A DNA stretch of 32,030 bases from positions 1 to 32,030 of the forward strand of contig JAUSOK010000198.1 of the NCBI GenBank assembly GCA_030656035.1, given 5' to 3'. The DNA comes from Syntrophales bacterium. Its GTDB lineage: Bacteria > Desulfobacterota > Syntrophia > Syntrophales > Fen-1087. Positions 1,154 to 21,407 of the stretch are shown in pieces. The notes below the pieces were generated by a model. That model was not told the origin of the DNA. It did not search any database and worked only from the letters and a program-made list of their open reading frames with translations. Made by a program: the position numbers and the translations under genes. The stretch's first letter is position 1; each line of letters opens with the position of its first letter.

Positions 1154-1411
1154 ATGAAACGTTTAATGTTATTGGTCGTCGCTCTGGTATTTCTTTTCAC
1201 GACAGCAGCTTTTGCACAGGCCCCGAAGGCCGCGCCTGCGATACCCGCAGAAGCGCCAAAGGTAGCCCCGGCAGACGTTGATAAGAAAGAAGTAAAGAAA
1301 GTCAAGAAAGTCAAGAAAGCCAAGAAGGCCAAGAAGGCCAAGAAGGCCGAAAAGAAGGAAATGAAAGAAGCAGCGCCGGCGCCCGCACCGGAAAAACCCG
1401 CTGCGAAATAA
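1154..1411 (+). CDS. Small exported Lys/Ala/Pro-rich protein
   Basis: An 85-residue protein that begins with a classical Sec signal peptide: a positive start MKR, a hydrophobic core, and an AFA cleavage motif at residues 19-21. The mature part is low complexity: an Ala/Pro-rich segment, a run of lysine tripeptides (KVK/KAK units, residues about 47-67), and a second Ala/Pro segment. The lysine run comes from seven near-identical 9-base units at 1292-1354, so its length may vary between strains by slippage. A strong ribosome site, AGGAGG, lies just before the ATG, and an intrinsic terminator follows, so this is a monocistronic, probably well-expressed gene. I infer a periplasmic or cell-surface polycation. 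No specific function is assigned. Confidence 0.75.
   Translation: MKRLMLLVVALVFLFTTAAFAQAPKAAPAIPAEAPKVAPADVDKKEVKKVKKVKKAKKAKKAKKAEKKEMKEAAPAPAPEKPAAK
1292..1354 (+). repeat. Seven tandem 9-base units in the coding region
   Basis: Units of the form GYCAAGAAR repeat in frame seven times, with minor changes in the first and last. Each encodes a lysine-rich tripeptide. The repeat explains the polylysine stretch of the exported small protein. Confidence 0.8.
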
Positions 1412-5756: not shown

Positions 5757-5785
5757 TTGAAAATCCTTTTTTTCTCCTGTACAAT
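5757..5785 (+). promoter_or_regulatory. Sigma70-like promoter for the desulforedoxin-tail gene
   Basis: TTGAAA at 5757-5762 is separated by exactly 17 bases from TACAAT at 5780-5785. Both boxes match the consensus in five of six positions. The resulting leader is about 110 bases. Confidence 0.6.
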
Positions 5786-5901: not shown

Positions 5902-6330
5902 ATGGTAAAAGCAAAAAAAGGGGATCTTTTCAGTTGTGAAGTTTGTGGTCTGATTGTAACGGTTGATGAGATTGGTCTGGGCATGGCGGAAATCAATTGC
6001 TGCAAAATGGGCATGGCGAAAGGCAAGGCGGCCGCCGACAAAGCGAAGAAGAGAGGCCTGTTGGCGGCGGCAAAAGCCCCCGCGAAAGCCGTCAAACCCG
6101 TCGCGGCAAAGGCGAAAACGCCGGCCAAACCGGCTTCCAAGGCGGCGGTAAAACCCAAGGCAGCCGTGAAAAAAGCAGCCCCGGCCAAGAAACCGGCAGC
6201 CCCAAAACCCAAGGCAGCCGTGAAAAAAGCGGCCCCGGCAAAAGTAGCCCCGGCAAAAGCGGCCCCGGCCAAGAAACCGGCAGCCCCAAAACCCAAGGCA
6301 GCCAAAGCGCCTGTCAAAGCCAAAAAGTAG
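5902..6330 (+). CDS. Desulforedoxin domain fused to histone-H1-like tail
   Basis: A 142-residue protein in two clearly different parts. Residues 7-38 form a desulforedoxin/rubredoxin-like knuckle: GDLFSCEVCG (Cys12, Cys15) and INCCKMGM (adjacent Cys33-Cys34). This matches the CxxC...CC spacing of desulforedoxin, which binds one tetrahedral iron or zinc. From about residue 39 to the end the chain is almost only Lys, Ala and Pro (KAAPAKKPAAPKPK units), resembling bacterial histone-H1-like tails. There is no signal peptide, so the basic tail is in the cytoplasm and probably contacts nucleic acid; this is inference. A strong AGGAGGAG ribosome site, its own promoter and a strong terminator make it monocistronic. 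The codon-level repeats in the tail suggest expansion by slippage. Lengths may differ among relatives. Confidence 0.8.
   Translation: MVKAKKGDLFSCEVCGLIVTVDEIGLGMAEINCCKMGMAKGKAAADKAKKRGLLAAAKAPAKAVKPVAAKAKTPAKPASKAAVKPKAAVKKAAPAKKPAAPKPKAAVKKAAPAKVAPAKAAPAKKPAAPKPKAAKAPVKAKK
6151..6303 (+). repeat. Internal DNA repeats encoding the H1-like tail
   Basis: A 30-base unit at 6151-6180 recurs with one change at 6205-6234 (54-base period). A 35-base unit at 6185-6219 recurs at 6269-6303. They stay in frame and encode the KPKAAVKKAAPAK-type segments of the tail. Confidence 0.8.
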
Positions 6331-6370
6331 GCATGACAACGTCCCGGACGTTCATACCCATCTATACATA

Positions 6371-6409
6371 AACCTCGTCCTTGGGGCTTTTCCAGGGACG
6401 GGGTTTTTA
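6371..6409 (+). terminator. Strong intrinsic terminator
   Basis: A 14-bp stem with G-T pairs tolerated (6371-6384 with 6392-6405), a 7-base loop, then a T-rich tail. It lies 40 bases after the desulforedoxin-tail gene. Confidence 0.92.
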
Positions 6410-8574: not shown

Positions 8575-8600
8575 CATCGGCAAAGGATGGCCGATTGCCG

Positions 8601-9617
8601 ATGGTTCCCATTTTTTCCAGCCAGGACGAGATTGAAAGAAAAACCTTGCTGATCCTGCGCATCCTGCATGAAGCCGGAGGGCCCATAGGCTCCCGCATTC
8701 TTGCGCGCAAGATGCAGGACAGGGGTTATATGCCCAGCGAGCGGACGGTCCGTTATCATCTGAAGCTCATGGATGAGCGGGGACTCACACGGCTCGTGGA
8801 TAAAAGGGATGGACGCATGATCACAGCCCGGGGCATTGACGAACTGGGCGAAGCCCGGGTCCGCGACAAGGTCGGGCTCGCAATCTCGCGCATCGAGATC
8901 CTGGCCTTTCGGACCACGTTTGATCCAGAGACGCAGGACGGCTTGCTGCCGATCAACATTTCCTTTTTTTCGACAGCCTCCTTTCCCCATGCCATGAAGA
9001 TCATGCGGCCCGTTTTTGAATCGGGTTTCGCCGTCAGCAACCGCGTCGCCATGGCACGTGCGGGGCAATATCTGGGAGACGTCCTCGTCCCGGAGGGAAA
9101 AATCGGCTTTGCCACGGTCTGCAGCATCGTCGTCAACGGCGTCCTGCTGAAGCACGGCATTCCTATGGATTCCAAATTCGGCGGCATTCTGCAGGTGAAG
9201 AACCGTCATCCCCTGAGATTTGCGGAGTTGATCTATTATTCCGGATCATCCCTTGATCCCTCCGAGGTCTTTATCCGCGGAAAGATGACCTCCGTCTGCA
9301 GCGCGATCGAAAAAGGAGAGGGGATGATCCTGGCGAACTTCCGGGAAATTCCGGCGCCCTGCCACGCGCTGACTTGCGATCTGCTGGCAAAGATGGGGAA
9401 GGCCGGCATCAACGGCGTTCTGGTCACGGGCAAAATCAGTGAATCGGTCTGCCAGGTCCCTGTGGAGGTCAACAAGGTGGGGATCATCCTGATCGGCGGT
9501 CTCAATCCGGTCGCCTGCGTCCAGGAAGCGGACCTGAATGTGGAAAACCAGGCCATGTCAACGGTGATGGATTATGGGGCGTTGGAACCTTTCGATGCAC
9601 TGAAAAAACGGCTTTAA
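8601..9617 (+). CDS. NrpR-like transcriptional regulator (wHTH + DUF128)
   Basis: A 338-residue protein with an N-terminal winged-helix domain of the ribonuclease R/NrpR type (residues about 10-75; SERTVRYHLKLMDERGL is the recognition part). It is followed by one long DUF128/NrpR effector domain, from residue 95 to the end. Methanogen NrpR represses nitrogen-assimilation genes and releases DNA when 2-oxoglutarate rises. Bacterial homologues usually carry a single effector domain, as here. The gene sits 67 bases upstream of glutamate dehydrogenase, which consumes 2-oxoglutarate and ammonium, so local nitrogen control is the natural inference. An in-frame TTG at 8595 is an alternative start; no good Shine-Dalgarno is visible for either. 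Confidence 0.85.
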   Translation: MVPIFSSQDEIERKTLLILRILHEAGGPIGSRILARKMQDRGYMPSERTVRYHLKLMDERGLTRLVDKRDGRMITARGIDELGEARVRDKVGLAISRIEILAFRTTFDPETQDGLLPINISFFSTASFPHAMKIMRPVFESGFAVSNRVAMARAGQYLGDVLVPEGKIGFATVCSIVVNGVLLKHGIPMDSKFGGILQVKNRHPLRFAELIYYSGSSLDPSEVFIRGKMTSVCSAIEKGEGMILANFREIPAPCHALTCDLLAKMGKAGINGVLVTGKISESVCQVPVEVNKVGIILIGGLNPVACVQEADLNVENQAMSTVMDYGALEPFDALKKRL

Positions 9618-9672: not shown

Positions 9673-11040
<1,368 letters not shown>

Positions 11041-13518: not shown

Positions 13519-14196
13519 TTATTTCTGTGCCTTCACGATCACGTAAGGGCAGGTCGGCAGCTTCTGCGTTCTGATTTCTCCGAACCCGGCAGCCCGGGCG
13601 AACGTTACAATTTCCTGCTGTGAGAAGCTGTGGCCGAAGATGATGTGACGCAATCCCCAGAAAAGCAAAGGATCCCAGAAATACCATGCTGTGAAGCGCT
13701 GCATGAAACGCCTCAGGGCCTTCCCCGATGTCTCGCTGTCTGTTTCCGAGATGACGGCCCACCGGCCCGGGGCAAGGACGCGGCGCATCTCCGCCACGCC
13801 CTGCTTCGGGTCCGGCCAATGCTTGATAGACCCGACGGACACGACCGCATTGAACCGGTTGTCCGCGAAGGGAAGATGCATGGCATTTCCCAGCTCGAAG
13901 CGGCAATTTTCGATTCCTCTGCGCTTGCGCAGCCGTTCCGCCGCACGGACCTGCGTGGCGGAAAAATCGATACCCGTCAGGGATGCCGTCGGGCGCCGGG
14001 CGGCTAAAAGCAGCGTGATGTATCCCCGGCCGGCCCCGACATCCAAGATCTTTGACGGTCCGTCCAGGTTGATCTCTTCGGCGATATGCTCGTAGAGTTC
14101 GAACAGGGCGTTGTAAATCTGCTGGTTGTAGATCGGGCCGAAGAGGTCCCACATCCAGCGCGCGTCGCGGGCCTTAACCAGGAGGTTCTTGAGCAT
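13519..14196 (-). CDS. Class I SAM-dependent methyltransferase
   Basis: A 225-residue Rossmann-type methyltransferase (Methyltransf_11-like). SAM motif I is ILDVGAGRGYITLLLA, motif II is LTGIDFSATQVRAAERL, and NAMHLPFADNRFNAVVSVGSIKHW covers motifs III and IV. A C-terminal hydrophobic patch (AWYFWDPLLFWGLRHIIF) suggests a lipophilic substrate or membrane contact. The substrate is unknown. The start codon overlaps the lipA end by 23 bases, implying coupled translation; a TTG at 14220 is an alternative. Its place between lipA and lpdA is not explained by any known step of glycine cleavage. Confidence 0.82.
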   Translation of the reverse strand: MLKNLLVKARDARWMWDLFGPIYNQQIYNALFELYEHIAEEINLDGPSKILDVGAGRGYITLLLAARRPTASLTGIDFSATQVRAAERLRKRRGIENCRFELGNAMHLPFADNRFNAVVSVGSIKHWPDPKQGVAEMRRVLAPGRWAVISETDSETSGKALRRFMQRFTAWYFWDPLLFWGLRHIIFGHSFSQQEIVTFARAAGFGEIRTQKLPTCPYVIVKAQK

Positions 14197-15082
14197 GGCT
14201 AATAAATCTTTCCGTTTCAACAGCTGTGCAGGCGGCGCGGTAGGAGCTGCGCACCAGGGGGCCCGCTACGACATGCCTGAATCCCATCGCCGCGGCCGCT
14301 TCTTTGAACGCCTCAAATTCATCGGGATGATAGTATTTTTGCACCGGCCAGTGATTCCGCGTCGGCTGCTGATATTGTCCGATGGTGAGCCTCCTGCACC
14401 GGACCCGGGCCAGATCTTCCATCAATGCCAGAATGTCCGCATGCGCTTCGCCGAAGCCCACCATGAAGCCGGATTTGGAGACGATTTTTTTTGACGAATC
14501 CTCGCCGATCCGCTTCAATAATTCAAGCGATACGCGGTAATCCCCCTGGGGACGAAGGTTTTTGAAAAGGACCGGCGCGACCTCCAGGTTGTGATTGATG
14601 ACCGTGGGACCGGCAGCCATCACCTGTTCAAGCGCCCGCCTGCTCCCCTGAAAATCCGGGATCAGGACTTCCACGCGGCATCCCGGGATCTGCTCGCGGA
14701 TCGCGGCAACACAGGCGGCGAAACATGCCGCCCCGCCGTCCGCCAGATCGTCGCGCGTGACCGACGTGATCACGACATATTGCAATCCGAGCGCCTGGAC
14801 GGCCTCAACGAGACGGGAGGGTTCATCGGGGTCGGGCGGAGAGGGAACGCCGTGGGCGACATGGCAATAGCGGCAGTTGCGCGTGCAGATATCGCCAAGG
14901 ATCAGGAAGGTCGCCGTGCCATCCCGAAAACATTCGGCGATGTTGGGGCAGCGCGCTTCCTGACAGACGGAATGGAGCCGGCGCCCACTGAGCACGCCCT
15001 GTACCTTTTTGTAAGGCTCGCCGCCGGGGAGTCGGACCTTTAACCAGTCCGGTTTGCGCAACGGGGGCGCGGCATTCTGCAT
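14174..15082 (-). CDS. lipA: Lipoyl synthase
   Basis: A 302-residue radical SAM enzyme that inserts two sulfurs into protein-bound octanoyl groups. Both iron-sulfur clusters are present: the auxiliary cluster motif CxxxxCxxxxxC (Cys40, Cys45, Cys51) and the radical SAM motif CTRNCRYC (Cys66, Cys70, Cys73). The C-terminal VRSSY motif supplies the conserved serine ligand. Its natural substrate here is GcvH, encoded in the same operon. The ATG at 15082 overlaps the stop of the KamA-like gene (TGATG), so I chose it over an ATG at 15097. No octanoyltransferase or lipoate ligase gene is in the window. Confidence 0.96.
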   Translation of the reverse strand: MQNAAPPLRKPDWLKVRLPGGEPYKKVQGVLSGRRLHSVCQEARCPNIAECFRDGTATFLILGDICTRNCRYCHVAHGVPSPPDPDEPSRLVEAVQALGLQYVVITSVTRDDLADGGAACFAACVAAIREQIPGCRVEVLIPDFQGSRRALEQVMAAGPTVINHNLEVAPVLFKNLRPQGDYRVSLELLKRIGEDSSKKIVSKSGFMVGFGEAHADILALMEDLARVRCRRLTIGQYQQPTRNHWPVQKYYHPDEFEAFKEAAAAMGFRHVVAGPLVRSSYRAACTAVETERFISHAQEPPG

Positions 15083-16986
15083 CAGAAGTAGTACCATATC
15101 GTGCTGTAATCAGCGATATTCTCGCCATCCTCGGACAGCCGCTTGAGATAGTCGTAAATGGCGACGTCCGTGTACAGATAATCCAGGGCGGTGACCAGCC
15201 GGACCTCCCAGGAGTAAAACCGGTAAATACGGCGGCCGTCAGGCAGAATCATGATCACTTCGTGGTCCTGCCAGGCCTGCAAGTGCGATTTGCCGAGCCG
15301 CGGGACGTTGAAGACCGGTTCGTCCTTCCGGACCAGTCCGGGCTGCAGCCGGGCCTCCTCGCGCCGCTCCTGTTCAATTCTGGCGATAGGCACGCGGAAG
15401 TCGATGGTTTCTTCCTTGCCCTTGGTGCTGAAGGCGTAGTAGGGATCGATCCCCGATACTTTAAGCATCTTGCGCAGCAGACAGGTCTCGAAGCGACGGC
15501 TGTTGTAATAGGTAAAGACCTGCTGGTTGTAAACGTTCATTCCCAGATTCTTGATCTTTTTCACTGCGTCGAGAGAATCGGGCGTCATTTCCGCGGCATG
15601 TTCGAAATGCGTAACAATGGCGATCTCGCGTTTTCCCCATTCATGATATTTTTTAAAAACGTCCAGAAGCCCCTCGTTGATTCTAAACGGGACGGTGACA
15701 AGAATCCGCGTGCCGATCCTGATCCGCTCGACGTGTTTGATGGCGGCGATCTCTCCGAGCAGCCAGTCCAGGTAATCGTTTTTCAGCGTCAGGGGATCGC
15801 CCCCGGTGACGAGCACTTCCGTGATGCCTTCGTGATCGCGGATCCATGCCAGCGCCTCCTGAACCTTCTTGCGGCTCATCTGGACATCGTCGTCAATGCT
15901 TTTGATTTCCCAGTTCCGCTGGCAGTACACGCAGATCTGCGGGCAGGAATTGTATGGTTTCAGGATCAGGATTTCCGGATAGCGTCGCGTAATGCCGTCG
16001 ATGGGACTGGTCGATTTTTCGCCCATGAAATCCATATCGATCCCCTTTTCCCGGCTTTCCTTTACGCCCTGGCAGTAACGTGGGCCGGGGATGACCTGGG
16101 CGCGGATTTGGCGGTCGGCGTCCGTGCGGCCCGATTTGTTGAACAGGGACAGATAATAGGGCGTGATTTCGAAGGGAATGTGCATTTCCTTGGCGCAGGC
16201 AAGCCCGTCCACCTCGTCGGGTTCCAGCCGGACAAGGTCGCCCAGGATCTTGGCGTCCTTGATAATATGCCGGTAATGCCACATGTAATCCTGCCACTGG
16301 CTCTCCTCGGCGCCGAAGTAGCTCAGGATTTCCTTTTTCAATTCCTGCCGCTGGCGGATGAGCGTGCGGTCGAATCCTGTCCGGTAGCGCCGGAAATTGC
16401 GCCGAATGAGCGACGCATAGTTATCTAACTGTTCGGAGCGGATCATCGCGGCATCCCGGCCATCCTTCATGCTGAAGACTTGCTGACCCGTGACGTGTTT
16501 GCCCGATTTGCCGGTAATTCCCCGGAAGAGCGCGATGAATTCGCATAAGAAGGCCTCGTTGATCTTTTCCAGGGACCCGGGAGCCTCTTTCGCTATCTCA
16601 ATAAGTCTCTCCAATGGCGAGGCGCCGGTCAGGTGTTCATTCTCCGTCCGCATGACATTGGACAGGACGCGGTTGCATTCCTTGGCGTTGCGCTTCTCGA
16701 TAATGTTGAGATCGACGAAGTAGGTGTCGGATCGCATATTGAACAGATCGCGCTCTAGCCGATTGAGATAATCAAACAGGATGAAGCGGGCCTCTTCTAT
16801 ATGATTGGAATTCTTGAGGATGCTCTTGATTTTCGGCTCTGCCGCCCAGAGCTTTTCAACGAGTTTTTCCTTGGAATGCTGAATCCAGTTTTTCATATAG
16901 GCGTCTCGCAAAGAAAATTCGAAACTTTTTATACCTTTAATATATTCACGCTCATGAAAGATCCAATCCGTTATCCCTTCCAGCAC
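15082..16986 (-). CDS. KamA-family radical SAM protein with large N-terminal extension
   Basis: A 634-residue protein of the lysine 2,3-aminomutase (KamA) family. The radical SAM motif is [12 protein letters not shown] (Cys348, Cys352, Cys355), followed by [12 protein letters not shown], a hallmark of the family. A lysine in VPRLGKS (Lys566) occupies the expected PLP-lysine position. The preceding roughly 330 residues, with no cysteine motif, are about twice as long as in classical lysine or glutamate 2,3-aminomutase, so this is a distinct subgroup and the amino-acid substrate cannot be assigned. The C-terminus FYSWE...STIWYYF is also unlike the classical enzyme. The gene starts inside the 3' end of gcvPB (16-base overlap) and its stop overlaps lipA, so it is a translationally coupled member of the glycine-cleavage operon. 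No beta-lysine acetyltransferase gene is nearby. Confidence 0.85.
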
Positions 16987-18413
16987 ACGTCCGGCTCGCG
17001 GGCGGCCCTGACCTCGTCCAGGCGCCTCACGGGCGTCGTCAACGGCGCGGATTTCACCTTTTCCGGTTCCTCGCGGGCTTCCCGGGCAATGGCGATCATG
17101 ACGTCGCAGAAGGCATCCAGCGTCTCGAGGCTTTCCGTTTCATTGGGCTCGATCATGATGGCCTCCGGGACAATCATCGGGAAGTAGATGGTGGGCGGAT
17201 GATACCCGTAGTCCAGAAGACGCTTGGCAATGTCGGAGGTATGGACGCCGCTCTCCCGGACCTGCCTGTGGCCGGTAAAGACGCATTCATGCATGCAGGT
17301 TCGGTCATAGGCCAGATCAAAGTAGGGTTTGAGCTTTTCCTTGAGATAATTGGCATTCAACACAGCGACTTCACTCACCTTTCTGAGACCATCCGGCCCC
17401 AGCGACCGGATATAGGCGTATGCCTTGACCATGACGTTGAAGTTGCCGTAAAAGGCCCGCACACGCCCGATCGTGTCCGGAAAGTCCTCGCTCCAGGCGT
17501 AGCGATCGCCGTCTTTTACGATGCGCGGGACGGGAAGATAATCGACGAGCTTGTCGCTCACCCCGACGGGGCCGCTTCCGGGTCCGCCGCAGCCGTGGGG
17601 TGTGGAGAAGGTCTTGTGCAGGTTGAGCTGGATCACATCGAAGCCCAGATCTCCGGCTCTCGTTTTTCCCATAAATGCGTTGGCGTTGGCGCCGTCGCAG
17701 TACAGGAGGCCGCCCCGGCTGTGAACAATGTCGGAAACCCCCTCGATATTGCGTTCAAAGAGGCCAAGGGTATTCGGATTGGTCAGCATCAGGCCGACCG
17801 CATCCCCGGTCATGAGTTCTCGGAGATGGTCCATGTCCACGCCTCCCTCTGCGTTGGAGCGGACCGTGACGGTCTGAAAGCCGCAGAGAGCGCCGGTCGC
17901 CGGATTTGTGCCATGCGCCGCATCGGGGATCAGTATCCGGCGGCGGTCATCCCCTCGTGTTTCAAAGTATTTTTTCATCATCATGACGCCCGTGAGTTCG
18001 CCATGCGCCCCGGCCGCCGGCTGCAGCGTAAAATCGGCCATGCCGAAGATTTCACTCAGGAACCCCTGCAGTTCATACATCATCCGCATATCGCCCTGCG
18101 CAAATTCGGCCGGCGCCAGCGGATGCAGTGCCGTAAAACCGGGCAGCCGGGCGACGTCCTCGTTGATTTTGGGATTGTACTTCATGGTGCAGGACCCCAG
18201 GGGGTAGAAACCCACATCCACGCCGAAATTTCGCCGCGAAAGCGTCGTGTAGTGGCGGATCAGATCCACCTCGGCCACTTCCGGCAGATCCACGTCTTCC
18301 CGAAGCAGCCTTTGCTCGATGACCTGATCCAGTGCAATTTCCGGCACATCACAGACCGGAATTCCGCCTGCTGTCCTGCCGGGCCGGCTCTTTTCAAAGA
18401 TTAAATCCATCAT
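16971..18413 (-). CDS. gcvPB: Glycine dehydrogenase (decarboxylating) subunit 2
   Basis: A 480-residue PLP-binding half of the split P protein. The PLP lysine lies in [22 protein letters not shown] (Lys267 from the chosen start), the signature of Gcv[16 protein letters not shown] and [12 protein letters not shown] are also typical. With subunit 1 it decarboxylates glycine and passes aminomethyl to the lipoyl arm of GcvH. The start ATG at 18413 has GAGG just upstream; a GTG at 18422 is alternative. The 110-base gap to gcvPA is the longest inside the core operon and is A+T-rich, so an internal promoter is possible, but no clear boxes are seen. Confidence 0.96.
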
Positions 18414-18532
18414 GCGCCTCACTTTTGGGATGGTTACTTCTCCGGTGTCTGTTTCCGAGCCATTTTTAGCCCCATTGACATCCTAATGCATTTATATAAA
18501 CGATTTTACACAGCCGGATTCTTTGTTCAGTG

Positions 18533-19858
18533 TTACCGTGCAATTGAAACAATCCGGTCCATATCTTCCCGGGACAGCATTTCCGTGGCGCACAGCAGCA
18601 GACTGTTCTTCAGTTCGGGATATTCGTTTTCAAGCGCGTAGCCGCCGATGATTCCTTCGTTTTGCAATCTCCGGTTGACGACCTTGGCATCGGGGCAGCG
18701 CATGGCGAATTCATTGTAAACGGGGCCGGAGAAGACCGGCTCCCAGCCCTCAAGCCGGGATAGATGTGTTTTGAGATATTGGGCTTTCTGGAAATTGAGT
18801 TCGGCCAGTTTTTTGAGGTTTTTTCCGAGGCAGACCAGATAGACTGCGGCGGCCAGGGCGCAGAGGGCTTCATTGGAGCAGATGTTGGACGTCGCCCTTT
18901 CGCGCCGTATGTGCTGTTCCCGGGTCTGCAGCGTCAGGACAAAGCCGCGCTGGCCGTCCTTGTCGAGAGTAGCCCCGGCGAGCCGACCAGGTATTTTGCG
19001 CAGGAATTTGTCCGTGCTCGCAAAAATGCCGAGATAGGGACCGCCGTAATTCATCGGATTGCCGAAGGCCTGTCCCTCCCCGACAACGAAATCCGCGCCC
19101 ATAGCACCTGCGGGCTTGAGGATGCCCAGGGAGGTGGCTTCCGTAAAACCGGAAACGAGCAGCGCCCCCTTTGCATGCACAGCGGCTTCAATAGAAGTAA
19201 TATCTTCAATAATTCCGAAAAAATTCGGCGTCTGGACCAGGACGGCGGCGGTATTGTGATCCACGGCCTCCGCCAGGACAGACCGATTCAGTTGGCCATT
19301 GTCAGCGTAGGGAACTTCGACCACCTCGTAGCCATTGGACCAGGCGTAGGTCTTCACGACCTGGCGGTATTGGGGATGCACGGAGCGGTTGATTACGATC
19401 TTCGTCCGGTTGAGCGTCTTGGCGGCCAGCACGGCGGCCTCGGCCATGGCGGAGGCCCCGTCGTACATGGAGGCGTTGGCCACCTGCATCCCCGTCAATC
19501 CGGCGATCATGGTCTGATATTCATAAATGGCCTGGAGGATACCCTGGCTGATTTCGGCCTGATAGGGCGTGTAGGCCGTGTAGAATTCCGAACGCGAAAT
19601 GACATGCCCCACCACGGCGGGGATGAAATGGTGATAGGCCCCGGCACCCGTCAGTGTGACGGCGGGGATCACATTCTGCGCGCCGATCTGCTGCATCAGC
19701 CCCCAGACCTCCTGTTCGGACATTGCGGGCGGCAAATTGAGGAGTTGCTTGAGTCTGTACTTTTCAGGAATGTCGGCAAAAAGGTCGTCCAGTCCGGCGA
19801 TCCCAATGGTCTGCATCATTTTTTTCTGATCTTCCGGGGTGTGGGGGACATAGTCCAT
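18533..19858 (-). CDS. gcvPA: Glycine dehydrogenase (decarboxylating) subunit 1
   Basis: A 441-residue N-terminal-type half of the split P protein. Its opening MDYVPHTPEDQKKMMQTIG and the segments FTAYTPYQAEISQGILQ and NASMYDGASAMAEA are diagnostic of GcvPA. MNYGGPYLGIF and RLAGATLDKDGQRGFVLTLQTREQHIRRE lie in the second half. It forms the alpha subunit of an alpha2beta2 enzyme with GcvPB. It begins 15 bases after gcvH ends, with AAGGAGC as ribosome site. The length is normal and nothing is missing. Confidence 0.96.
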   Translation of the reverse strand: MDYVPHTPEDQKKMMQTIGIAGLDDLFADIPEKYRLKQLLNLPPAMSEQEVWGLMQQIGAQNVIPAVTLTGAGAYHHFIPAVVGHVISRSEFYTAYTPYQAEISQGILQAIYEYQTMIAGLTGMQVANASMYDGASAMAEAAVLAAKTLNRTKIVINRSVHPQYRQVVKTYAWSNGYEVVEVPYADNGQLNRSVLAEAVDHNTAAVLVQTPNFFGIIEDITSIEAAVHAKGALLVSGFTEATSLGILKPAGAMGADFVVGEGQAFGNPMNYGGPYLGIFASTDKFLRKIPGRLAGATLDKDGQRGFVLTLQTREQHIRRERATSNICSNEALCALAAAVYLVCLGKNLKKLAELNFQKAQYLKTHLSRLEGWEPVFSGPVYNEFAMRCPDAKVVNRRLQNEGIIGGYALENEYPELKNSLLLCATEMLSREDMDRIVSIAR

Positions 19859-19873
19859 CGGATGCTCCTTGAA

Positions 19874-20272
19874 TCAGTGTTTTTCTTCCCGTATCAGGGC
19901 GTCATAGGCGGCGGCGGCCATGAGGCCGTCGAGTTCCGCCGGGTTGTCCATTTTCAGTTTTACGATCCAGCCCTCGCCGAAAGCGTCCTGATTGATCAGT
20001 TCCGGCCGGCTCTCCAGCGGCAGATTCACCGCGATGACTTCGCCGCCGACCGGGGCGAAAACGTCGGAGACCGATTTGACGGACTCGACGACGGCCAGAG
20101 GGGCCGTCTGTTCGACCTTTTTCCCCACAGGCGGCAGTTCCACAAAGACGATGTCCGTGAGCATTTCCTGGGCGTAATCGGTAATGCCGACGGTCGCCGT
20201 CCCGTCGCCGTGATCGAGCGCCCATTCGTGTTCTTTTGAATATTTACGGTCCGTTGGATTGGGTTTTGCCAT
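19874..20272 (-). CDS. gcvH: Glycine cleavage H protein
   Basis: A 132-residue lipoyl carrier. The lipoylated lysine is Lys66 in VVESVKSVSDV, with the usual KEHEWA opening, VGITDYAQEMLTDIVFVELP and the GEGWIVKLK end. It shuttles the aminomethyl and reduced lipoyl arm among the P, T and L proteins, all of which are encoded in this operon. The start at 20272 is set by GGGAG eight bases upstream, which lies in the 13-base gap after gcvT; the longer frame starting at 20299 would overlap gcvT and lacks a ribosome site. Confidence 0.97.
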   Translation of the reverse strand: MAKPNPTDRKYSKEHEWALDHGDGTATVGITDYAQEMLTDIVFVELPPVGKKVEQTAPLAVVESVKSVSDVFAPVGGEVIAVNLPLESRPELINQDAFGEGWIVKLKMDNPAELDGLMAAAAYDALIREEKH

Positions 20273-20285
20273 ATTTTTTCTCCCT

Positions 20286-21407
20286 TCAGATGAATACATT
20301 ATAAAAGACAGCCTTGTCTTTGCGGTTGTAAAAAGGAAGCCTTACGATTTTTGCCCGGACGGGACGCTCCCGGATCAGGATGTCGATTTCGGTTTCCGGT
20401 TCGGTGTAGATGACGGGCACAAAGGCCAGCCCCACGGCCTTGTTGAGGGTCGGGGCCAGCGTGCCGGACGTGACTTCGCCGATTTCGCGGCCGTATTTAA
20501 GGACTTTATATCCCTGCCGGGCGATGCCGCGATCGACCATTTCAAATCCGACCAGTTTGCGGGAAACGCCTGTTTTCTTCTGCCCGCTCAGCGCGTCGCG
20601 GCCGATGAAGTCCTTTTCGAGATCGACGACCCAGCCGTAGGTAACTTCAAGGGGCGATACGGACTCGTCCATCTCGTGGCCGTAAAGCATCATGCCCGCT
20701 TCCAGCCGCAGCGTATCGCGGGCGCCGAGCCCGACGGGTTTCAGTCCCGCCCCGGCGCCGGCGGCCAGCAGGCGGTCCCAGGCGACGCCGATCCGCTCGC
20801 CGGCGGCGTAAATCTCGAAACCATCCTCCCCGGTATAGCCGCTTCTGGAGACGAGAGCGGGAATCCCCGCCACGATCGTGTTCAGGCAATTATAATATTT
20901 CAGGGCGTTCAGATCCGCTTCAGTTAGAGACTGCAGAATCGCCTGTGCCTGAGGACCCTGAATGTCCAGTTTACCGAGTTCATCCGTCCGGTCGGAAATC
21001 TCGACCCCGGAAAACCCCTCCGCTTTCTTCCGCGTTTCCAGCCACTGGAGATCCTTATCCTTGCTGGCGGCGTTTGTCACGAGCATGTAATGGTCGTTTT
21101 CAAGCCTGTACACCGTCAGATCATCCAGGATGCCGCCCTGTTCATTCGTCAGAACGCAGAGCTTCATCTGGCCGACGGCCTGCTTCTCTAGATTCCGGCT
21201 GACAACACGCTGCAGCAGCGCGAGGGCCTGCGGTCCCTTGACTTCGATTTCTCCCATGTGGCAGATGTCGAAAAGGCCTGCTCTGGTCCGGGTCGCGTGG
21301 TGCTCTTCGATGACATTGGTGTACTGGACCGGCATGAGCCACCCGCCGAAATCGATCATTTTAGCGCCGAGGGAAAGATGGCGCTCATAAAGGGGCGTTT
21401 TTTTCAT
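20286..21407 (-). CDS. gcvT: Aminomethyltransferase (T protein)
   Basis: A 373-residue tetrahydrofolate-dependent aminomethyltransferase that releases ammonia and makes methylene-THF from the GcvH intermediate. Family landmarks are TPLYERHLSLGAKMIDFGGW at the start, ARTRAGLFDICHMGEIEV, SRSGYTGEDGFEIY in the middle and LGARDTLRLEAGMMLYGHEMD after it, all matching GcvT rather than sarcosine oxidase relatives. AGGAGACC precedes ATG. It is the first catalytic gene of the glycine-cleavage operon, 48 bases after a zinc-ribbon gene. Confidence 0.96.
   Translation of the reverse strand: MKKTPLYERHLSLGAKMIDFGGWLMPVQYTNVIEEHHATRTRAGLFDICHMGEIEVKGPQALALLQRVVSRNLEKQAVGQMKLCVLTNEQGGILDDLTVYRLENDHYMLVTNAASKDKDLQWLETRKKAEGFSGVEISDRTDELGKLDIQGPQAQAILQSLTEADLNALKYYNCLNTIVAGIPALVSRSGYTGEDGFEIYAAGERIGVAWDRLLAAGAGAGLKPVGLGARDTLRLEAGMMLYGHEMDESVSPLEVTYGWVVDLEKDFIGRDALSGQKKTGVSRKLVGFEMVDRGIARQGYKVLKYGREIGEVTSGTLAPTLNKAVGLAFVPVIYTEPETEIDILIRERPVRAKIVRLPFYNRKDKAVFYNVFI

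Follow-up and report, generated by a model that had tools for sequence, protein, structure and literature searches.

A small gene in the window, the 32,030-nucleotide stretch of Syntrophales DNA analysed here, encodes a desulforedoxin-like head joined to a long tail rich in lysine, alanine and proline. The initial annotation saw in this pairing a nucleoid-associated or RNA-binding redox or metal sensor. The locus raises the question of whether the combination is an isolated fusion or a recurrent architecture, and of what such a protein might do.

The gene and its immediate setting

The open reading frame (Table 1) runs from an ATG, immediately preceded by an AGGAGG-type ribosome-binding sequence, to a TAG stop codon. 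Its product contains cysteines only at positions 12, 15, 33 and 34 and is probably cytoplasmic, no signal peptide being seen by eye. A same-strand alpha/beta hydrolase gene ends 150 bp before the start of this gene, which faces a transglutaminase-like gene. Sites resembling a promoter and a terminator hairpin, both consensus matches only, flank it; one promoter-like match was observed against 0.3 expected from shuffled sequence. The gene looks monocistronic in the window, and the minus-strand open reading frames that overlap it look like shadows of the tail. A second match to the head was not found in the window's genome (2.0 Mb, 91% complete).

Table 1. Sequence features of the tailed desulforedoxin-like gene and its flanks (window positions).
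Feature	Position	Strand	Properties and basis
Sigma-70-like promoter match, 10/12	5757..5785	+	Consensus scan, weak evidence
Tailed desulforedoxin-like gene, head and Lys/Ala/Pro tail	5902..6330	+	142 aa, computed pI 10.4, 14.1 kDa
Head, residues 1-41, C12-x2-C15-x17-C33-C34	5902..6024	+	Computed pI 6.0, desulforedoxin fold (predicted)
Basic tail, residues 43-142	6028..6327	+	40 Ala, 30 Lys, 16 Pro; computed pI 11.4
15-bp tandem repeat, 3 copies, within tail	6225..6269	+	Tandem-repeat detection; partial growth by DNA duplication
Terminator-like hairpin, 17 pairs then T run	6370..6406	+	Consensus match

The putative metal-binding head

A desulforedoxin-type CxxC...CC head had been proposed from the cysteine pattern, and both profile comparison and predicted fold bear this out. 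Against Pfam Desulfoferrod_N (PF06397, cut-off 23 bits), the whole protein passes with 23.1 bits and its 52-residue N-terminal fragment with 26.3 bits. The NCBIfam model desulf_FeS4 (TIGR00319, cut-off 36.05 bits) is missed by the whole protein (17.1 bits) and by the head fragment (20.1 bits). Apart from Desulfoferrod_N, Pfam returns one weak low-complexity match in the window protein and nothing else. Four relatives compared with PF06397 all fall under the cut-off, three of them at 13.6-20.5 bits and the fourth (L069) with no match. When a profile built from 25 heads was compared with the PDB, desulforedoxin ranked first (E 3e-6) with its four cysteines aligned. Endothelin receptor matches seen in a single-sequence PDB search disappeared once the profile was used, and these were rejected as chance.

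Structural modeling gives a similar picture. The AlphaFold model of the window protein has a mean pLDDT of 64 overall, with head blocks at 63-83, and its head superposes on desulforedoxin from Desulfovibrio gigas (1dxg) with a TM(target) of 0.86 and an rmsd of 1.5 Å. A second fold comparison with 1dxg gives a Z of 4.3 and an rmsd of 1.0 Å over 36/36 residues. The fold matches that follow 1dxg are superoxide reductase heads, and the other PDB matches shown have probabilities of at most 0.13. The model of a distant seven-cysteine relative (L065) likewise matches desulforedoxin, with a TM of 0.87. Computation supports a predicted desulforedoxin fold for the head, a putative four-cysteine metal site that most likely holds a mononuclear, one-electron Fe(SCys)4 centre.

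We infer iron rather than zinc in this site; sequence cannot discriminate the two metals here, and four cysteines can hold zinc as well as iron. The protein could instead be a zinc-knuckle nucleic-acid-binding protein with no redox role, whose head holds structural zinc and whose tail compacts or covers DNA, RNA or ribosomes. The apparently monocistronic gene would suit such a protein, while the nearest folds, those of desulforedoxin and desulfoferrodoxin heads, argue against it.

The window protein shares with desulforedoxin its fold, its CxxC...CC ligands and its existence as a separate small protein rather than as part of an enzyme. It differs in the spacing from CxxC to CC, which is 17 residues here and 15 in desulforedoxin, for which an excerpt of PMC3116461 gives CX2CX15CC. 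It also differs in its long basic extension, and most of its relatives carry an extra CxC in the loop. The same excerpt places the desulforedoxin head in three settings: stand-alone desulforedoxin, Dx-SOR and HTH-Dx-SOR (PMC3116461).

The basic tail

The tail of about 100 Lys/Ala/Pro residues described in the initial annotation is confirmed: 86 of the 100 residues are Lys, Ala or Pro, with 1 Arg, 1 Asp and 0 Glu, and the richest 60-residue stretch reaches 92%. Of 31 other open reading frames counted as genes of the window, none exceeds 38% except ORF 1154-1411, at 75%. AlphaFold models a helix at residues 42-57 and the remainder without regular structure. Long, basic, predicted to be disordered and carrying KPAA/PAKK/KAAK-type motifs, the segment has the makings of an H1-like tail. 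At E<=0.001, a search of the window's genome for other tail matches returned only an overlapping one at the same place.

The exceptional ORF 1154-1411 (+) is a small open reading frame with a signal-peptide-like start (by eye), a Lys/Ala-rich repeat tail and 9-bp tandem repeats at 1286-1348. It matches the acid-shock protein Asr weakly (23.4 bits, cut-off 50).

The tandem repeat in the tail (Table 1) invites the view that slippage at repeats gave rise to the tail as neutral sequence of low complexity, as does the wide variation in tail length among relatives. However, Lys, Ala and Pro are each written with several synonymous codons, and the single detected tandem repeat covers just 45 bp of the tail DNA, which makes the tail more than a DNA microsatellite.

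Known proteins with comparable tails include AlgP, PhaF and HupB, in which a Lys/Ala/Pro-rich segment with KPAA/PAKK/KAAK motifs is likewise C-terminal. Their folded domains set AlgP and HupB apart, being helical in AlgP and HU-like in HupB, whereas Pfam shows no AlgP or HU domain in the window protein. To our knowledge, no metal site has been described in the folded domains of AlgP, PhaF or HupB. A further difference from these three proteins is that some members of the tailed desulforedoxin-like family carry the basic extension N-terminally. Tails of the KPAA/PAKK/KAAK type in AlgP and HupB bind DNA, according to excerpts of two papers (PMC9239181, PMC5676037). The first of these also describes AlgP, with its KPAA tail, as required for polyphosphate granule spacing and PhaF as having a similar tail (PMC9239181).

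A widespread family of tailed desulforedoxin-like proteins

The fusion of a desulforedoxin head to a basic tail is real, as first proposed, but it does not stand alone. Basic-tailed desulforedoxin-like proteins are a widespread family rather than a one-off fusion, with 68 distinct members spanning Syntrophales, other Thermodesulfobacteriota, Chloroflexota, Endomicrobia and archaea. These 68 proteins, the window's included, were kept from 99 loci after 11 canonical desulfoferrodoxins or desulforedoxins, 18 identical proteins and 2 sequences interrupted by masked bases were dropped. Start codons of the relatives were set by rule, which may misplace the ends of N-terminal extensions by a few residues; one protein (L004), translated from a non-start codon, has an uncertain N-terminus.

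Of the 60 genomes closest to that of the window, 46 have a match at E<=1. Translation covered L001-L030, with weaker matches and some second copies left out (one of these, in G049, is probably L058). The best matches of 27 genomes (L002-L028) all combine the head with a basic extension, and L029 and L030 proved to be plain desulfoferrodoxins. Neither G001, the sole genome of the same genus, nor G002, the sole genome of the same family, gave a match; therefore, the gene is either dispensable or was missed in both. A scan of named genomes yielded 41 loci, mostly of Syntrophales type; the remainder carry the labels Dehalococcoidia, other Chloroflexi, Endomicrobia, Bathyarchaeota and ANME-1. Proteins identical to those of named Syntrophales records point to Syntrophales as the order of the window. 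In a phylum-wide scan of 148 genomes, 31 have a match at E<=1e-5, and their scores are bimodal, with 20 genomes, including the window's own, at 45 bits or above. Ten loci scoring below 32 bits were translated (L090-L099), of which nine are canonical desulfoferrodoxins or desulforedoxins and one (L096) is a family member. A locus filed as Phycisphaerales (L043) shares its exact head sequence with L017, which belongs to the same order as the window; L043 may be a binning error.

Absence of the CC pair or of the tail from homologues, named at the outset as grounds for refutation, was not observed: CxxC, CC and a net-positive extension are present in all 68 members. The relatives translated together with L090-L099 were selected with a pattern requiring CxxC and CC and carry no independent weight as to the cysteines. 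The spacing between the two motifs is x17 in the window protein and x17-19 in relatives. The initial picture of a four-cysteine knuckle is accurate for the two motifs and too narrow for the family, since most relatives carry extra cysteines. Head cysteines number four in 12 proteins, five in 4, six in 31, seven in 20 and eight in 1, which places the window protein in the four-cysteine minority. A CxC between CxxC and CC occurs in 52 of the 68 and is absent from the window protein. In relatives with five to eight head cysteines, a second metal site or a disulphide is possible.

Computation also shows a consistent division of charge. The net charge of the head is negative in 67 members and zero in one, and the net charge of the extension is at least +1 in every member. 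Pooled, the extensions comprise 3796 residues, including 1394 Lys, 1131 Ala, 294 Pro, 75 Arg, 55 Glu and 13 Asp; Lys makes up about 37% overall, and 1469 Lys and Arg stand against 68 Asp and Glu. The extension is not always C-terminal as it is in the window protein and as had been supposed: by simple length rules, the long extension is C-terminal in 42 members and N-terminal in 21, with only short extensions in 5. Proteins range from 46 to 142 aa. In two Dehalococcoidia members (L062, L068), Lys/Ala/Pro-rich extensions flank the knuckle on both sides.

The charge pattern persists while the extension changes in place, length and exact sequence, and we take this as the best argument that the extension matters. 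Judged from these sequences, extension charge appears to be conserved although its position is not. The excess of basic residues, the net positive charge throughout the family and the occurrence of the extension at either end, together with the mixed codons, make neutral slippage a very improbable account of the tail.

A tree of the heads separates the family from desulfoferrodoxin heads with an SH-aLRT of 99 and contains one inferred switch between N- and C-terminal placement of the extension. The tree comprises 34 columns and is weakly resolved, with 43 of 68 inner branches open, and is used here only for the desulfoferrodoxin split and for the way in which N-tailed and C-tailed forms cluster. 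The head domain is homologous to that of desulfoferrodoxin, Dx-SOR and HTH-Dx-SOR proteins (PF06397 with PF01880). However, the superoxide reductase domain (PF01880) is absent from the window protein, as it is from its genome (91% complete), and this absence and the separate tree group of the heads led us to reject a canonical desulfoferrodoxin.

In desulforubrerythrin, a desulforedoxin-like centre is fused to an enzyme. The head described here instead has a tail as its fusion partner, and genes of the rubrerythrin type occur as neighbours at most. An excerpt of PMC7482061 describes the desulforedoxin-like centre of Campylobacter jejuni desulforubrerythrin as serving rubrerythrin. Full-text searches of open-licence PMC papers turned up no description of a basic-tailed desulforedoxin fusion. 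The fold and the type of tail are both known; we rate as new their widespread combination, which comes with an added CxC in most members.

Gene neighbourhoods

Neighbour counts come from our own calling of open reading frames (greedy, 80 aa minimum) rather than from annotation. The window gene has no redox genes among its own neighbours, and elsewhere the neighbours differ by lineage. Thioredoxin-reductase-like genes occur at 6 of 41 loci, four of them divergent (Syntrophus-type) and two 34 bp upstream (Endomicrobia); at these Endomicrobia loci (L069, L070), a ferritin-like gene also lies 18 bp away. Ferritin-like genes are present at 4 of 41 loci in all, and a rubrerythrin-like gene adjoins at L065 and a putative one at L054. 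A fumarate-reductase-like flavoprotein gene is found at 4 of 41 loci and at five in a further set of 18, where L107 and L071 are one and the same place. The remaining loci among the 18 have unrelated neighbours, such as M16-peptidase-like and methyltransferase-like genes (by eye). A transglutaminase-like gene is present at 8 of 41 loci. No neighbour is common to all loci, and a universal operon partner was rejected. These patterns are suggestive of a redox gene context that is lineage-bound rather than general.

The prevalence of non-redox neighbours is what a zinc-knuckle protein without a redox role would lead one to expect, and redox neighbours in several separate lineages count against it. 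Together with the fold evidence, this makes the zinc-based reading rather unlikely.

Of the 41 loci (window included), 11 have an alpha/beta hydrolase gene upstream in the same orientation. Any link between such a gene and storage polymers is only a guess, though one that would accord with a granule protein of the AlgP/PhaF kind, in which the tail would bind polyphosphate or anchor storage granules on the nucleoid, with the metal head in an accessory role. The part played by AlgP in granule spacing and the similar tail of PhaF lend this some appeal. However, the head bears no relation to the helical domain of AlgP and no polyphosphate or PHA gene was identified adjoining, making a granule function improbable.

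Several loci show further arrangements. A cluster in which the knuckle gene sits between genes for a secreted-looking protein of about 260-300 aa and for a fumarate-reductase-like flavoprotein recurs at L106, L110, L111, L112, L065 and L071, and at L106 and L110 a small conserved protein of ~95 aa is encoded between the knuckle gene and the flavoprotein. At two ANME-1 loci, the gene after the knuckle (L064:2467-3357, with a counterpart in L067) resembles by eye a MutY-like adenine glycosylase, a repair enzyme for oxidised DNA.

Viral contigs, phages, plasmids and PHROGs gave no match, where the viral-contig query (A2) was without the window protein and the phage and plasmid query was L065 alone. 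A viral or mobile-element origin was rejected on this basis.

A proposed role at a polyanion

We propose, with about an even chance of being right, that the protein is a detached desulforedoxin-type centre held on a polyanion by a tail of the H1/AlgP kind, for redox or iron handling. The acidic head would act as an FeS4 one-electron carrier. By analogy with the tails of histone H1, AlgP and HupB, the disordered tail would keep the head bound by electrostatic attraction to a polyanion, the nucleoid or RNA being the most likely and polyphosphate also a candidate, and so place a detached desulforedoxin module beside nucleic acid. There the head may exchange electrons with rubrerythrin- or ferritin-type partners, or buffer iron, during oxygen exposure. 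The function is probably redox or iron handling, and we infer the redox role, as we do polyanion binding and the redox partners. The window's genome contains six rubrerythrin-family matches and no superoxide reductase domain, which suggests that rubrerythrins may be available as partners. None of the results points to the sensor role first suggested, or to a DNA-specific target over RNA or polyphosphate.

The opposite charges of head and extension, which hold family-wide, could also serve protein contacts. The tail might be a docking arm for an acidic partner, such as a rubrerythrin, ferritin or flavoprotein, or might fold back on the acidic head, with nucleic acid uninvolved; possible partners do adjoin in some genomes. 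However, long extensions with this lysine content probably exceed the usual needs of docking, and their make-up matches that of known DNA-binding tails. A docking or fold-back role that leaves nucleic acid uninvolved is judged unlikely.

Rubredoxin-type carriers are regarded as freely diffusing. A bolder form of the polyanion proposal, tentative and less likely than not, is a nucleoid-seated redox family in which a rubredoxin-like carrier is bound to the chromosome by an H1-like tail that switched ends during evolution, allowing electron transfer or iron control directly at the DNA of oxygen-exposed anaerobes. If true, fixing a carrier to a polyanion would offer an uncomplicated means of localising electron transfer or iron control at DNA or RNA, and would give strict anaerobes a counterpart of DNA-bound Dps. 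The proteins of the family are small and present in many anaerobe lineages.

Other features of the window

An NrpR-type regulator (PF01995, 274 bits) is encoded at 8595-9617 (+), and a glutamate-dehydrogenase-like open reading frame (by eye) lies directly 3' of it at 9685-11040 (+). NrpR is best known from archaeal nitrogen control. At 14174-21407 (-), lipoyl synthase, lysine 2,3-aminomutase-like and glycine cleavage genes, recognised by eye, form a single run.
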